DNA of 64,000 nucleotides from Thalassospira sp. MCCC 1A03138 (GTDB taxonomy: Bacteria > Pseudomonadota > Alphaproteobacteria > Rhodospirillales > Thalassospiraceae), in contig NZ_JFJY01000003.1 in NCBI RefSeq assembly GCF_002115785.1, positions 62,001-126,000 on the forward strand, read 5' to 3'. A program made the translations under genes and the position numbers. Under the pieces are notes generated by a model. It made no database searches. It was not told the DNA's origin and was given only the letters and a program-made list of their open reading frames with translations. Below, piece by piece: positions 3,710 to 62,548 of this stretch (position 1 is the stretch's first letter; every line of letters begins with the position of its first letter).

Positions 3710-4215
3710 CCGCAACACTTTTTATATTTCTTGCCCGAACCACAAGGGCAGGGATCATTGCGACCTGAATTTCCGGAACCAACCACATTTTTTGACGTTT
3801 CTCGTTCTGGAAATTCGCCATCTATATAAATCCACTTTCCGTTCCGGCGTTCAAACCGGGATCGTTCATGCAGGACGTGATCAGCACCCCCGTCGCTAAA
3901 CCTAGCGACGAATTCGACAATACCCTTCTGATCAAGAATACCGCCCTTGTCGGTGGCAATGATTTCCAATCCAGTCCATTCGGTTTTGTCAGTACTTATC
4001 TGATTCGGATCAAATGCCGATGCCTTTTCCGGCGCGAGTGTTGCCAGAAGATAATCCGCGTCACGACAAACAAATGCGCAATATCGAGAGCGCATCAATT
4101 GTTCAGCAGTTGCCGCCTTTCTGATCCCTGCGAGGATTGCCCCGCAGCAATTGCCGAAACTTTCACCTTTTCCACAGGGGCAGGCGCTTATGGTGCTGGG
4201 CTTATGCACTGGCAC
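3706..4215 (-). CDS. YchJ-family protein with N- and C-terminal SEC-C motifs
   Basis: A 169-residue member of the YchJ/UPF0225 family. It carries two SEC-C zinc motifs: [14 protein letters not shown] at residues 12-25 and [13 protein letters not shown] at the extreme C-terminus. Between them is the NTF2-like YchJ core ([23 protein letters not shown], then TEWTGLEI and a HERSRF segment). The SEC-C motif resembles the zinc tail of SecA and is thought to mediate protein or ribosome contacts; the cellular role of YchJ is unknown. It is transcribed towards the NUDIX gene, and the two stop codons share TTAA at 3706-3709. Confidence 0.9.
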
Positions 4216-4400
4216 TTTGTAACTGTCCCTTGGTCATATAAGTCATTGGCGTCCAAACTCACCGTCGATGTCGTATTCTATCTGCGGCATTAGGAGCGTA
4301 TACGGCCAGTCACACATTCAACCTGCAACGAATGGCGTAAAACGCTATAAAAAACAATCAGGGTGCCTTCTTTTTGCCGCATATCGATTTTAGCGTAATT

Positions 4401-4416
4401 TTATCAGCGTTGATAA
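4401..4416. repeat. Inverted repeat TTATCA-GCGT-TGATAA
   Basis: A perfect 6-4-6 inverted repeat in the ychJ-rpoH intergenic region. The geometry is like that of an operator for a dimeric regulator such as an FNR-type protein (consensus TTGAT-N4-ATCAA), but the half-sites differ, so the regulator is unknown. Confidence 0.35.
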
Positions 4417-4498
4417 TTCCCGACTGCATTTATCGGGTAAATTATGTAAAATGCTGATATTGAAAGTTAAATATAGCTGAAATCCAGTCAGGTTTATC

Positions 4499-4528
4499 TT
4501 GACGAATTTAGTCGGGTTTAGATATATT
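4499..4528 (+). promoter_or_regulatory. Candidate sigma70 promoter, upstream rpoH leader
   Basis: TTGACG (4499-4504) and TATATT (4523-4528) are separated by 18 bp. A start near 4535 would give an approximately 305-nt leader before rpoH that contains the hairpin-rich GC segment and the small ORF at 4629. Confidence 0.5.
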
Positions 4529-4628
4529 AACTTTTGCGGGTGGGGGCCCAATGGCACCGCCGGATAATGTTCCGGCCTAATGGCGGACATGTAAATTGTC
4601 GATTTGCTTCGAGGAAGGAAGAGACACG

Positions 4629-4670
4629 ATGAATATACGTTATCTTTGCGTCTGCTGTCCTCTCCCATAG
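4629..4670 (+). CDS. Candidate 13-aa cysteine-rich leader peptide
   Basis: ATG 4629 opens a 13-codon frame, MNIRYLCVCCPLP, ending at TAG 4668-4670. A strong purine-rich ribosome site (AGGAAGGAAGAG) lies about 6 nt upstream, much better than those of many larger genes here. Three of four consecutive codons (TGC GTC TGC TGT) encode cysteine, and the stop codon is inside the hairpin at 4664-4680. It could be an attenuation-type leader peptide sensing cysteine or redox state, or a spurious frame. There is no direct evidence of translation. Confidence 0.4.
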   Translation: MNIRYLCVCCPLP

Positions 4671-4680
4671 GGCCTATGGG
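4664..4680. repeat. Short palindrome at the end of the small ORF
   Basis: CCCATAGGGCCTATGGG is an inverted repeat with 8-bp arms around a single central base. It overlaps the last codons and stop of the 13-aa ORF. As RNA it can form only about a 7-bp stem with a tight loop, so it may instead be a DNA operator. Confidence 0.45.
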
Positions 4681-4732
4681 ATGAATTTGCGACCGGGCAG
4701 AACCATTTCCCAAAATGACTACCGGTCGTCCA

Positions 4733-4748
4733 TGTGATTTAAATCACA
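4733..4748. promoter_or_regulatory. CRP-family operator upstream of rpoH
   Basis: TGTGATTTAAATCACA is a perfect 16-bp palindrome that matches the CRP consensus TGTGA-N6-TCACA at every specified base. It ends 2 bp before the -35 box of the proximal rpoH promoter. Its centre lies about 43 bp upstream of the predicted start, close to the class II activator position (-41.5). Which CRP/FNR-family member binds is unknown. Confidence 0.65.
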
Positions 4749-4749
4749 A

Positions 4750-4777
4750 CTGACAGTGTTTGCGCGTCATCTAAAGT
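4750..4777 (+). promoter_or_regulatory. Candidate proximal rpoH promoter
   Basis: CTGACA (4750-4755) and TAAAGT (4772-4777) with a 16-bp spacer. The -35 box matches 5 of 6 consensus positions and the -10 box 4 of 6, a weak promoter as expected of one that depends on an activator at the adjoining palindrome. The predicted start is near 4784. Confidence 0.45.
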
Positions 4778-4839
4778 CTGTTTGAATTCGTAGGAAGAAT
4801 TGTCAGGCGTGGTGCGTAAACCTCTCTGGAGGACATGAT

Positions 4840-5709
4840 ATGAGCACTATTAAATTACCTGCAGTACCGCAGGACGATGGTTTCTCCGGCTACCTGAGAC
4901 AGGTCTGGAAGTTTCCGATGCTCAGCGTAGACGAAGAATATATGCTTGCACGCCGCTATCACGAGCATGATGACACCGATGCAGCTCACAAGCTGGTCAC
5001 AAGTCACTTGCGTCTTGTTGCTAAAATTGCTTTTGGTTATCGTGGCTATGGCTTGCCAATGGCCGATCTGGTGGCCGAGGGCAATACCGGCTTGATGCGG
5101 GCTGTTCAGAAATTCGATCCGGAGCGTGGCTTCCGTCTGTCGACCTATGCAATGTGGTGGATTAAAGCAGCTGTGACCGAATACATCCTTCACAGCTGGT
5201 CGATGGTTAAACTCGGTACGATGGCTGCACAGAAAAAGCTGTTCTTCAGCCTGCGTAAAGCCAAAAAGCAACTTAACATCTATGACAATGGCGAACTGTC
5301 ACCCGAACAGGCAGATGCCGTTGCCGAGAAACTTGGCGTGACCGGTAAAGAAGCGCTTGAAATGAACCGTCGCCTTGCAGCGCGTGATTTCTCGCTTAAC
5401 ACACCAATGCCGAAAGACGAAGGCATGGAGTATCTTGATACTCTGTCGTCTGATGCACCAAGCCCGGAAAGCATCGTTGCAGATGCCGAGGAACGTGTTT
5501 TACATAACGACATGCTGAAAAGCGCGATGGGTGAGTTGCCAGAGCGCGAGCGTGAGATTATCGAAGCCCGTTTCCTGAGTGATGATCCGATTACGCTTGA
5601 AAAACTTGGCGAACGCTTTGGCGTAAGTCGCGAACGTGTGCGTCAGCTTGAGGCGCGCGCATTCAAAAAAATTCAGGAATCTGTTCTGACGCAGCATGCT
5701 GCGGCGTGA
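4840..5709 (+). CDS. rpoH: RNA polymerase heat-shock sigma factor RpoH (sigma-32)
   Basis: Directs RNA polymerase to heat-shock and other stress promoters. The 289-residue protein is the normal length. Region 2 contains HLRLVAKIAFGYRGYGLP and the core-binding/-10 recognition segment GFRLSTYAMWWIKAAVTEYI. The RpoH box (QKKLFFSLRK, about residues 131-140) separates it from RpoD-type factors, and region 4 ends in a helix-turn-helix (LEKLGERFGVSRERVRQLEARAFKKIQ). TCTGGAGGAC precedes ATG 4840. Upstream elements suggest at least two promoters, one with a CRP-type site. A symmetric terminator separates it from the convergent NUDIX gene. Confidence 0.97.
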   Translation: MSTIKLPAVPQDDGFSGYLRQVWKFPMLSVDEEYMLARRYHEHDDTDAAHKLVTSHLRLVAKIAFGYRGYGLPMADLVAEGNTGLMRAVQKFDPERGFRLSTYAMWWIKAAVTEYILHSWSMVKLGTMAAQKKLFFSLRKAKKQLNIYDNGELSPEQADAVAEKLGVTGKEALEMNRRLAARDFSLNTPMPKDEGMEYLDTLSSDAPSPESIVADAEERVLHNDMLKSAMGELPEREREIIEARFLSDDPITLEKLGERFGVSRERVRQLEARAFKKIQESVLTQHAAA

Positions 5710-5730
5710 TCAGATTTCTACTAATCAATC

Positions 5731-5763
5731 AAAAGGCGGCATCTTCTGATGTCGCCTTTTTGT
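5731..5763. terminator. Bidirectional terminator between rpoH and NUDIX gene
   Basis: AAAAGGCG-G-CAT and ATG-T-CGCCTTTT form a long stem with one internal mismatch, followed by T residues on the plus strand; the A run gives a T run on the minus strand. It serves both convergent genes. Confidence 0.8.
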
Positions 5764-5780
5764 TTTCGTGAGGGTTGAGT

Positions 5781-6224
5781 TTACCGACGTAAAGCGCGCG
5801 AACGGGTAATCATGTCTTTGGTTTTGCCCCAAAGCTGGTAGTCATCAAGCTGCACGAAAGGCACCCAGCGGGCATCGGCAGCATCACCGCCAGCCTTTAA
5901 ATCGGTTTCTTGTGCTTCGGCGACGAAGTCGATCAGGGTATAGTGATATTGAACCTGCCCATTGCCATCTGGCGTGATTAGGTCGATTGTATCAATCAGA
6001 ACCGGGGTTGATACGATGATACCGGCTTCCTCCAGGACTTCTCGCCTAACCGCATCACGCAATGTTTCACCAAGCTCCTGTGCGCCGCCGGGAATGCTCC
6101 AACTGCCTTTACTTGGCGCCTTGCCCCGTTTGATCAGCAAAACATTTTCTTCATTCCAAATAACAGCACCAACTCCGATGATCGGCCTAGCAAGGTAATC
6201 TCGCTTATCGTCGATATCAGACAT
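5781..6224 (-). CDS. NUDIX hydrolase
   Basis: A 147-residue MutT/ADP-ribose-pyrophosphatase-like hydrolase. The Nudix box G-x5-E-x7-REVLEEAG is complete in GGAQELGETLRDAVRREVLE (about residues 45-67). The N-terminal RPIIGVGAVIWNEENVLLIKR is typical of the family. Two ATGs lie close together; ATG 6224 (MSDIDDKRDY) is preferred because GAGG lies just upstream. The start overlaps the end of the next small gene (stop at 6217), indicating translational coupling. The substrate is unknown; a housecleaning or NADH/ADP-ribose role is possible. Confidence 0.85.
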   Translation of the reverse strand: MSDIDDKRDYLARPIIGVGAVIWNEENVLLIKRGKAPSKGSWSIPGGAQELGETLRDAVRREVLEEAGIIVSTPVLIDTIDLITPDGNGQVQYHYTLIDFVAEAQETDLKAGGDAADARWVPFVQLDDYQLWGKTKDMITRSRALRR

Positions 6225-18658: not shown

Positions 18659-19351
18659 TCACGCCCTCGCAATGCCGCGGGAAGCCCGCTTTTCAAGTCG
18701 ATTGAAGACAAATAGCGATACGGTGGTAAAGGCCAGAAACATTGCCATGGCGACCAGATAAAACGTAAAGGGCGCTTTTTCTGTACCCGCACCGACCGCG
18801 GCCTTGCGCAGGACTTCTTCGACGCCCACGACGGATATCAATGCCGTATCTTTGATCAGAACCTGAAACAGATTGTTAAGGCCGGGCAGGGCAAACCGCC
18901 AGAGCTGCGGCAATTTGATGCGAATGAATATCTGCGTGGGTGTCATGCCGCATGCGGTTGCCGCTTCTATCTGGCCAAGTGGAATGGACTGCATTGCAGC
19001 CCGGAATACCTCGGACGCAAAAGCCCCCTGAACAAGTGCAAGGGCAGCAACCCCCGACCAAAATGCAGGAATGTCAACGCGAACCGCTTCACCGCCGATC
19101 AGTTCGGCGAGGTTCTGAATGGCAATAGTACCGCCAAAATAGATCAATAAAATAACCAGAAGTTCGGGAATGCCGCGAATAATAACGGTATAACTTTCCC
19201 CGATGATCCGAAGGGCCTTGTAACGCGACAGCTTTGCCGATGCGCCCAGCAAACCTAGAATTATCATGAATGGTAGCACGGTCAGGCAAAGCTGGACCGT
19301 CACAAGTCCACCTTCAAGCATCTGCCAACCGCGGCCGTATAAATCAAACAT
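18659..19351 (-). CDS. Basic amino acid ABC transporter permease (AotQ/HisQ-like)
   Basis: Partner permease of 230 residues. The VIIRGIPELLVILLIYFGG segment and the EAA loop GQIEAATACGMTPTQIFIRI (about residues 140-160) identify the HisQ/ArtQ group. It follows the substrate-binding protein gene after an 88-bp gap holding a strong stem-loop that probably lowers permease expression relative to the binding protein. Confidence 0.9.
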   Translation of the reverse strand: MFDLYGRGWQMLEGGLVTVQLCLTVLPFMIILGLLGASAKLSRYKALRIIGESYTVIIRGIPELLVILLIYFGGTIAIQNLAELIGGEAVRVDIPAFWSGVAALALVQGAFASEVFRAAMQSIPLGQIEAATACGMTPTQIFIRIKLPQLWRFALPGLNNLFQVLIKDTALISVVGVEEVLRKAAVGAGTEKAPFTFYLVAMAMFLAFTTVSLFVFNRLEKRASRGIARA

Positions 19352-61426: not shown

Positions 61427-62548
61427 CTATTCCGCTATTTTTTCGTAGGTTATCGCAATATCTTCACCAACTGGACGAACAGATGTGCGTTGAAAACGTG
61501 GCATGTCTGAAAGATGATCAAGCCCGAGCTCAGCGATCATCGCCTTGCCTTCCGCCCCGATCAGGGATGGTGCAATGAAATGAACCACCCGATCAGTCAA
61601 ATCTCTATGCACCAAGTCGGCAGCCAGATTGCCACCACTTTCAATCAAAACGCGCGTCAGCCCCTGCTCGCCCAAACGTTTCATCACGTCATTTAGGTCG
61701 AAATGATCATTCTCGCACCCGGCAGTAAGTACTTTGACCCCGGTTTTTCCAAATTTTTCAAAAACTTCGTCAAATTTGTCTTGGGATGTAATGATCCAGG
61801 TAGGAACTTTTGGGGCACCACGGACCAATTCCGCCGATACAGGTACATCGCCATTGCGATCAAGGACAACACGAACAGGTGATTGGGCTTCTCGTCCGGG
61901 GATACGGCATGTGAGAGTGGGGTTATCAAAAATGACAGTCTTGGCACCAACAAGGATCGCATCGTGATTGGCCCTCAACAGGTGACCATACTCACGCGCA
62001 ATATCCCCCGTTATCCACTGGCTCTCACCAGAGCGCGTCGCGGATCGGGCATCAATGGTGGATGCCAGTTTTAATGTAATGATCGGCCGACCGGAAACAA
62101 TGCGCGATAGGAACCCAGCATTGATGCGATGGGCTTCGTCGCCATAAAGCCCTGTTTCAACCTTGATGCCCGCATCACGCAACATTTTGTACCCTTTGCC
62201 TGAAACACGACGATCAGGGTCTTCGAGGGCGCTGACGACACGCTTTACACCGGCTTCGATCAGTCCCAACGCACAAGGCGGCGATTTACCAAAATGACTA
62301 CAGGGTTCAAGCGTTACATAGGCAGTAGAATTGCGTGCTTTATCGCCTGCCTCATCAAGTGCGACACGCTCTGCATGAGGCCTTCCACCCGGCTTGGTGA
62401 AGCCGCGCCCGACAATCGTTCCCTGGAGTGAAACCAGGACACACCCGACGGACGGGTTGGGCCAGACATTTCCCAGACCGCGTTTTGACAGGCTTAGCGC
62501 AACCCGCATGAAATGCCGGTCGTCATCTGAAAACGCGGTGGCTGCCAT
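61427..62548 (-). CDS. ribD: Bifunctional pyrimidine deaminase/reductase RibD
   Basis: Deaminates and reduces the pyrimidine intermediate in riboflavin synthesis. 373 residues: deaminase zinc site PHAERVALDEA and VTLEPCSHFGKSPPCA (about 55-95), then a dihydrofolate-reductase-like RibD C domain with MDARSATRSGESQWI-like SQWITG region and LIESGGNLAADLV. One-base overlap with nrdR. Confidence 0.94.
   Translation of the reverse strand: MAATAFSDDDRHFMRVALSLSKRGLGNVWPNPSVGCVLVSLQGTIVGRGFTKPGGRPHAERVALDEAGDKARNSTAYVTLEPCSHFGKSPPCALGLIEAGVKRVVSALEDPDRRVSGKGYKMLRDAGIKVETGLYGDEAHRINAGFLSRIVSGRPIITLKLASTIDARSATRSGESQWITGDIAREYGHLLRANHDAILVGAKTVIFDNPTLTCRIPGREAQSPVRVVLDRNGDVPVSAELVRGAPKVPTWIITSQDKFDEVFEKFGKTGVKVLTAGCENDHFDLNDVMKRLGEQGLTRVLIESGGNLAADLVHRDLTDRVVHFIAPSLIGAEGKAMIAELGLDHLSDMPRFQRTSVRPVGEDIAITYEKIAE

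Follow-up and report, generated by a model that had tools for sequence, protein, structure and literature searches.

The 64,000-nucleotide stretch of contig NZ_JFJY01000003.1 from Thalassospira sp. MCCC 1A03138 analyzed here (positions 62,001 to 126,000 of the forward strand; hereafter the window) carries the stress sigma factor gene rpoH behind a long structured leader that contains a short open reading frame (sORF), and this leader is probably a heat-gated translational relay in which a ROSE-like RNA thermometer controls rpoH through the leader ORF. In the proposed mechanism, the thermometer (4536-4626, with its last hairpin at 4597-4626) would hide the Shine-Dalgarno sequence (SD) of the sORF and not the SD of rpoH. 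In the cold, the sORF would be untranslated, GUCCUCU within it (4657-4663) would pair with GGAGGAC at the rpoH SD (4828-4834), and rpoH would be off, with intercistronic hairpins folding up the space between the sORF and rpoH. Upon heating, the thermometer would open and a ribosome would read the sORF; at the sORF stop this ribosome would cover the anti-SD, the rpoH site would be freed, and sigma-32 would be made, with the peptide sequence itself being of little importance. The relay, which combines two known devices, is suggested by the ROSE box, by the wide occurrence of the hairpin before rpoH, by the position of the anti-SD and its lineage-specific match to the rpoH SD, and by the predicted pairing and release; we infer that the thermometer melts with temperature and that the sORF is translated, as well as how rpoH is affected, in direction and in extent. 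The signal sensed is likely temperature. An earlier reading of this region from its sequence (the original prediction) had instead proposed a cysteine-rich leader peptide that senses cysteine or thiol stress by ribosome stalling; comparison supports the regulation of rpoH by a leader ORF in a structured leader, but not the sensing of cysteine or thiols by stalling.

Conservation of the leader ORF in Thalassospira

Chance alone often places a short ORF behind a strong SD, and conservation was therefore used as the test of the sORF. The 13-codon frame of the original prediction is indeed present behind a strong SD (4629-4670, GGAAGGA), but such a frame is not rare per se; the 64-kb window holds 16 ATGs with a strong SD and 8-30 codons (9 on the plus strand and 7 on the minus strand). 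The leader was detected as DNA in 29/29 Thalassospira genomes (the window's own and 28 others) and in 0/31 of the other genomes searched. Because its position, start, stop and flanks are conserved in all 29 aligned genomes, we judge that the sORF is real. Sequences that are invariant in the genus alignment comprise TTGAC, TATATT, GCGGGTGGGGGCCCA, most of hairpin H2 (Table 1), TGTCGATTTGCTTC, and most of the sORF SD. Elsewhere the leader has drifted, with a mean pairwise, ungapped identity of 0.58 in sORF codons 2-8 and of 0.41 in the sequence preceding rpoH, both values being lowered by indels; the two leader boxes were located as exact strings, present in 29/29 genomes, so that their identity of 1.00 arises by construction.

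Within the sORF, GTCCTCT is the stretch without change at any position, the third positions of codons among them (29/29). The encoded peptide varies, and the variants in Thalassospira include MNELLISVCCPLP, MKTHTSYLSCPLP, MKQTNLCSNCPLS, MNTQFYLRRPLP and MSMTFCLRRPLA; three cysteines are found in 6 of the peptides, two in 15, one in 7 and none in 1. Of the conservation that the original prediction had looked to, the sORF start is found in all 29 Thalassospira genomes, but CVCC in only 6/29; moreover, the peptides of relatives are unrelated and clustered Cys codons are not conserved, which argues against sensing of cysteine or thiols by stalling. When one short ORF per genus was compared across 34 genera, the sole Cys cluster (C.?C) was the window's own, and 15 of the ORFs had any Cys. 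Cys codons numbered 21/439 in frame versus 10/439 and 16/439 in the other frames, a small excess that we leave uninterpreted (loci L239, L245 and L255 were omitted from the Cys-codon and genus comparisons). The peptides look unrelated between families, and we estimate that random frames would have lengths not much different from theirs; in general, therefore, selection probably does not act on the peptide as a product.

Complementarity between the leader ORF and the rpoH SD

To place the partner of the rpoH SD, the duplex energy of each rpoH SD region was calculated against windows along the leader, with SDs shuffled between genera (65 leaders, 37 genera). In the zone from +8 to +40 after the sORF start, the duplex energy was -10.02 kcal/mol with the leader's own SD and -8.78 kcal/mol with foreign SDs, and 3/20,000 permutations were as good; the control zones from -60 to -28 and from +48 to +80 displayed no preference for the own SD (9918 and 12699 of 20,000). 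In 25.2/37 genera, where 10.0 were expected, the SD had its best partner within the +8 to +40 zone. A second set of loci that had not been used before, analyzed with the zone unchanged, had the best partner in the zone in 6.5/11 genera (2.9 expected), and the share of foreign SDs that beat the own SD averaged 36% (50% expected); this set shares four genera (g22, g37, g43 and g54) with the first and retains the mis-parsed loci L239 and L245. The complementary sequences differ between lineages: Thalassospira sORFs mostly end in PLP before the stop codon, with GUCCUCU against GGAGGAC, and in several genomes of family f20 the sORFs end in SPV or CPV before the stop codon because they carry UCCCGU, the rpoH SD there being ACGGGA. 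Altogether, the lineage-specific anti-SD effect looks real but moderate in these sequence comparisons.

Two other arrangements were tried and rejected. When the sORF stop instead of the start was taken as the reference point for the anti-SD, the result was weaker (183/20,000 as good, with the stop zone holding the best partner in 10/30 genera). On average, the sORF zone likewise paired less strongly with the SD of the sORF itself (-7.27 vs. -9.67), the rpoH SD being the better partner in 51/65 leaders. The stop-register test, as well as the zone-cover and per-family tests described below, omitted sORFs of more than 30 or fewer than 5 codons and those with a gap below 30.

Predicted long-range pairing and its release

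Pairing of the downstream SD with the leader ORF region is supported by folding predictions in addition to the lineage-specific complementarity, with exceptions. In the folding of Thalassospira leaders, carried out without L030, the best of the seven long-range pairs reached a predicted probability of at least 0.9 at 37 °C in 21/28 leaders with GGAGGAC and 0.37-0.89 in L015, L018, L019, L020, L022, L028 and L029. When the end of the sORF was covered, to mimic a terminating ribosome, the predicted unpaired fraction of the rpoH SD at 37 °C rose, in the window from 0.06 to 0.43. Across 30 genera, opening the rpoH SD cost 6.22 kcal/mol without a cover, 3.70 kcal/mol with the zone covered and 5.98 kcal/mol with a control cover of equal length; the cost decreased by more than 1 kcal/mol in 23/30 genera with the zone covered and in 6/30 with the control (Wilcoxon zone vs. 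control, p = 6.5e-9).

A ROSE-like hairpin at the ribosome site of the leader ORF

Hairpin H3 of Thalassospira is predicted to form in isolation with a UGUC/GACA stem, and the ROSE core pairs have a mean probability of 0.62 in L002-L006, the type to which the window sequence belongs, the best fold placing two G residues opposite each other (L007 was mis-scored among the Thalassospira register probabilities). Several hairpins with the SD in the last one, as in ROSE elements with their two to four hairpins, were predicted for the leader, with two alternatives for the first hairpins. The same UUGCU-type box is found upstream of rpoH in other Rhodospirillales, and the bulged-G hairpin, in which U(U/C)GCU of ROSE elements pairs imperfectly with the SD, appears in the minimum-energy fold of 10/11 named relatives, the exception being L038. 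The ROSE register has four core pairs, all of which are possible in 16/16 hand-picked leaders, as well as in 85/85 distinct hairpins found by a covariance model (R1, described below); in the latter, 87% of cells pair, compared to 41-61% when slid, in an alignment that was itself fitted to the structure.

Rfam ROSE families match the same places in 12/20 loci (6/10 Hsp20 and 6/10 rpoH), but weakly (E 0.065-4.9), all of these matches scoring below the cut-off. In the rpoH leaders of relatives, RF00435 reached 25.8-29.6 bits against a cut-off of 45 and RF02523 reached 21.7-22.3 bits against a cut-off of 43, and in L043 the Rfam ROSE model aligned over 1-94 of its 94 positions. Because the Rfam ROSE matches are weak or below the cut-off in relatives and absent from the window, we term the window element ROSE-like. 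Neither the ROSE-like character of the 3' leader hairpin (4597-4626) nor the complementarity of 4657-4663 to the rpoH SD (4828-4834) had been seen in the original prediction.

Occurrence of the hairpin before rpoH and Hsp20 genes

R1 was built from 16 rpoH-leader hairpins, the window sequence among them, and its match in the window (4597-4630, 38.7 bits, E 3.7e-7) is the sole strong match in the genome and that of a training sequence. Among 76 named rpoH loci (the best 80 of 585 rpoH loci minus 4 Thalassospira), R1 was strong in 11, all in the rpoH leader and all training sequences; three further matches of 12.9-13.6 bits were taken as chance. R1 matched 206/248 genomes of the window's order at E<=0.5 (177/219 outside the genus) and, in a draw across the class, 37/289 genomes at E<=0.01.

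The order yielded at least 150 R1 matches, 29 in the genus and 121 outside it, and 120 of these 121 were read (87, then 33, with G194 left out); the loci read lean to high scores, and loci were counted rather than genomes, some genomes giving two; locus L254 was not used. Among the first 87 loci outside the genus, 82 matches lay before rpoH and 5 before another ORF, with a short ORF followed by rpoH in 64 loci and the hairpin directly on the rpoH start in 18. The short ORFs of the 64 loci have a median of 15 codons (interquartile range 10-26) and a stop at a median of 87 nucleotides (nt) before rpoH; the 87-locus counts include loci whose first ORF runs into or up to rpoH (L181, L190, L197 and L212), an ORF of 1 codon (L191), and a poor rpoH start (L188). 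The 33 further order loci, together with 5 class loci, comprised 19 with a short ORF and then rpoH (L239 and L245 being doubtful), 7 with the hairpin directly on rpoH, and 12 before other ORFs. All ten of the non-rpoH ORFs scanned with Pfam, out of 17 such ORFs that directly follow the hairpin, were HSP20, and a Pfam scan of five 45-amino-acid ORF fragments returned nothing useful. Hsp20 genes are the classic ROSE targets, and we regard the recovery of these textbook targets by a model trained on rpoH leaders only as the best evidence that the hairpins are ROSE elements. On balance, we lean towards a design that is spread across the order, in which a thermometer sits on a short leader ORF whose translation would relay heat to rpoH via a covered anti-SD, with the logic kept and the peptide and pairing sequences changed.

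Three further observations were made among these loci. In one genome (L239/L255, G068:C136), tandem ROSE-like hairpins lie on the same strand, the one before an Hsp20-like gene (by its N-terminus) and the next before the leader ORF of rpoH. Elsewhere in the class, in family f89 outside the order (L256, L257 and L258), a ROSE-like hairpin lies directly on rpoH. Sub-threshold Rfam matches to the alphaproteobacterial sRNAs SorX and BjrC1505 were found near Hsp20 genes (L185 575-630, L241 839-898 and L233 835-979).

Other features of the locus

The features of the locus are listed in Table 1. The architecture described in the original prediction was found as claimed: the promoter-like TTGACG-18-TATATT is present at 4499-4528 (10/12 matches), and from a presumed start near 4535 the leader would run for about 305 nt as far as the rpoH ATG (4840). 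The GC-rich hairpins are there and nearly invariant in sequence, folding yielding two alternative arrangements for them; the sORF stop (TAG, 4668-4670) lies within the palindrome CCCATAGGGCCTATGGG (4664-4680); and the downstream gene (4840-5709) is rpoH by NCBIfam TIGR02392 rpoH_proteo (347.2 bits, cut-off 323.1).

Table 1. Coordinates of the rpoH leader and its features in the window.
Feature	Position	Strand	Basis
Candidate distal promoter, TTGACG-18-TATATT	4499-4528	+	Consensus match 10/12; TTGAC and TATATT unchanged in the 29-genome Thalassospira alignment
Predicted hairpin H1 of the leader (GGUG...CACC)	4539-4558	+	Fold, with an alternative fold; GCGGGTGGGGGCCC (from 4536) identical in 29/29
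Predicted hairpin H2 (AUG-UCCG-G-CC/GG-CGGA-CAU)	4567-4590	+	Sequence and fold; alternative hairpin CCGGA/UCCGG competes
ROSE-like hairpin H3 over the sORF SD, UGUC-GA-UUU-G-CUUC / GAAG-G-AAG-A-GACA	4597-4626	+	UUGCU opposite the SD; fold and R1 match
sORF SD, GGAAGGA, within H3	4613-4619	+	Sequence
13-codon leader ORF MNIRYLCVCCPLP, stop TAG 4668-4670	4629-4670	+	12-13 codons, ATG and TAG in 29/29
Putative anti-SD GUCCUCU in the sORF, complementary to the rpoH SD	4657-4663	+	GTCCTCT in 29/29, third positions invariant; lineage-specific complementarity across genera
Predicted hairpin over the sORF stop, CCCAUAGGGCCUAUGGG	4664-4680	+	Fold; stop hairpin in 6/9 representatives folded
Predicted intercistronic hairpin GCGACCGG...CCGGUCGU	4689-4729	+	Fold
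Palindrome TGTGATTTAAATCACA	4733-4748	+	Perfect; GTG...CAC inverted repeat in most of the genus alignment, not L030
Possible proximal promoter, CTGACA-16-TAAAGT	4750-4777	+	Weak match, 9/12
rpoH SD, GGAGGAC, putative partner of 4657-4663	4828-4834	+	GGAGGAC in 28/29; GGAGGAT in L030, which could keep a G-U pair
rpoH	4840-5709	+	NCBIfam TIGR02392

Among the nine representatives folded, the stop region of L026, L027 and L030 pairs further downstream instead of forming the stop hairpin. By eye, the intercistronic hairpins are kept despite sequence change, as GCGACCGG/CCGGTCGT in most Thalassospira and with complementary arms of other sequence in L025 and in L026, L027 and L030, and in these folds the hairpins between the sORF and rpoH look as if they were folding up the distance. 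The palindrome TGTGATTTAAATCACA resembles a CRP/FNR-type site; together with the weak promoter match downstream of it (4750-4777), this sequence suggests a proximal rpoH promoter that would bypass the switch. A promoter scan of the region returned 5 sites of the grade of the proximal promoter, with 2.5 expected by chance, and a scan of 3800-5800 returned no terminator-like site in the leader that would indicate intrinsic termination.

The box GCGGGTGGGGGCCCA (4536-4550) is invariant in 29/29 Thalassospira, beyond the needs of a simple stem, and a search for a trans partner of this invariant leader box found no second genomic site within one mismatch of the 14-base pattern. The rpoH SD may itself form a local 4-bp hairpin, CCUC-UCNG-GAGG (4821-4834), the sequence of which is conserved in the genus; its predicted probability is at most 0.14, and it might form after release of the long-range pair. 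The closest named RpoH proteins, among the best 80 of 585 rpoH loci, are those of T. xianhensis (100%) and T. alkalitolerans (97%). The genome also encodes a second RpoH-like protein (52% identity, contig C30), as well as a sigma factor that is more distant (32%, contig C33).

Discussion

Several points weigh against a heat-gated relay. The +8 to +40 zone was picked after an exploratory look at the data; in 6/37 genera, the own SD is outdone in pairing by more than 75% of foreign SDs, and in the second set g54 and g8 (the mis-parsed L245) go against the match. When each family was represented by a single leader and helices were scored in a simple way (21 families from both sets, the mis-parsed L239 and L245 omitted), the match was weaker, at 568/20,000, with the control at 18977/20,000. 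The long-range pairing at 25 °C is predicted at only 0.10-0.29 in L015, L019, L020 and L022, and in L022 at this temperature covering the sORF end gives no easier opening. The ROSE-register probability is 0.37 in L008 and 0.04 in 22 Thalassospira, which favour UUUGCU/AGUAAG, a register that leaves the sORF SD partly looped out; in longer segments, six of eleven fold otherwise. In the window leader, Rfam found no match at the gathering score and none at E<=10, and in a separate scan a ROSE match was returned in only 1/15 loci. The possible proximal promoter could produce rpoH mRNA that bypasses the switch. Lastly, predicted melting is small, the unpaired fraction of the sORF SD being 0.29 at 15 °C and 0.39 at 50 °C in the window (nearest-neighbour folding) and, on average over 51 leaders, 0.30 at 20 °C and 0.42 at 55 °C. 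The nearest-neighbour energy model treats non-canonical pairs poorly, and for this reason the slight predicted melting is taken as weak evidence against a thermometer. Such pairs are said to be the basis of ROSE sensing (PMC4166951).

That the sORF zone matches the rpoH SD of its own lineage also bears on two other explanations. If the ROSE element controlled an sORF whose translation shields the leader from Rho-dependent termination or RNase, full rpoH mRNA would be made, or would survive, at high temperature; such protection would need translation only and no peptide, in keeping with the long leader, the variable sORF sequence and the 87-nt median gap, but it does not predict the match, and we consider it unlikely. 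The anti-SD signal is equally left unexplained if the thermometer drives re-initiation or direct coupling, with sORF ribosomes passing to rpoH and the pairing having no role. In a few loci the first ORF does end near or overlap the rpoH start (L181 +1, L212 -4, L190 -23 and L197 -35); however, the distance of 160-171 nt, hairpins included, that separates the two frames in Thalassospira, and of 87 nt (median) elsewhere, is long for re-initiation, and we regard this explanation as quite improbable.

The leader structure could also be static, at least in Thalassospira, with the sORF always translated, the anti-SD setting a fixed level, and heat control lying elsewhere (mRNA stability or the proximal promoter). 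A static structure would agree with the small predicted melting and with the 22/29 Thalassospira in which the ROSE register is not the predicted one, but the same model finds hairpins on Hsp20 genes, the box is a known ROSE motif, and placement before rpoH throughout the order would be odd for such a structure, making it rather unlikely. Cysteine or thiol stress sensed through stalling at clustered Cys codons appears highly improbable: although the window encodes CVCC and at least one Cys is present in 28/29 Thalassospira peptides, CVCC is kept in 6/29, the Cys before Pro is Arg in L026-L030, the window's own cluster is the sole one among 34 genera, and the conserved nucleotides are accounted for by the anti-SD.

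RNA thermometers are known to lock, in a single step, the gene that they control. In the translational attenuation of erm and cat, a ribosome on a leader ORF alters pairing and frees the downstream site, with an antibiotic stalling the ribosome; in the heat-gated relay proposed here, the gate would instead be temperature-controlled initiation on the leader ORF, and stalling would be unneeded. Similarly, in uof-fur coupling and in the Min Jou interaction of MS2, a downstream start is under the control of an upstream frame whose translation is regulated, long-range pairing being the means in MS2; there, however, a small RNA serves as the gate (uof) or no gate exists (MS2), and not a thermometer. 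The E. coli rpoH thermosensor is not known to have a leader ORF or a ROSE core. It resembles the proposed relay in that sigma-32 translation would be under temperature control by mRNA structure, as the relevant portion of one paper describes for the E. coli rpoH mRNA (PMC4166951).

ROSE elements are characterized, in the sections of two papers that describe them, by U(U/C)GCU opposite the SD and by several hairpins, the last of which contains the SD (PMC3669281, PMC11342760), and a 2024 paper, in the part concerned with targets, adds ABC transporters to the ROSE-controlled genes (PMC11342760). The leader described here resembles ROSE (RF00435, RF01832 and RF02523) in having U(U/C)GCU that would face the SD and multiple predicted hairpins with the SD in the last, and in that the model also finds Hsp20 genes. 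It differs from ROSE in that it would guard a 13-codon ORF upstream of rpoH and not a heat-shock gene directly, scores below the Rfam cut-offs, and has a different predicted register in most Thalassospira. No description of a ROSE thermometer on an rpoH leader ORF was found in the open-licence literature searched (titles, starts of abstracts and some passages). If the relay is true, a thermometer that locks a leader ORF, which in turn unlocks a sigma factor, would constitute a two-stage thermal switch, acting as a filter or an amplifier, atop the heat-shock response, and would explain the upkeep, in place, of a peptide without conserved sequence.
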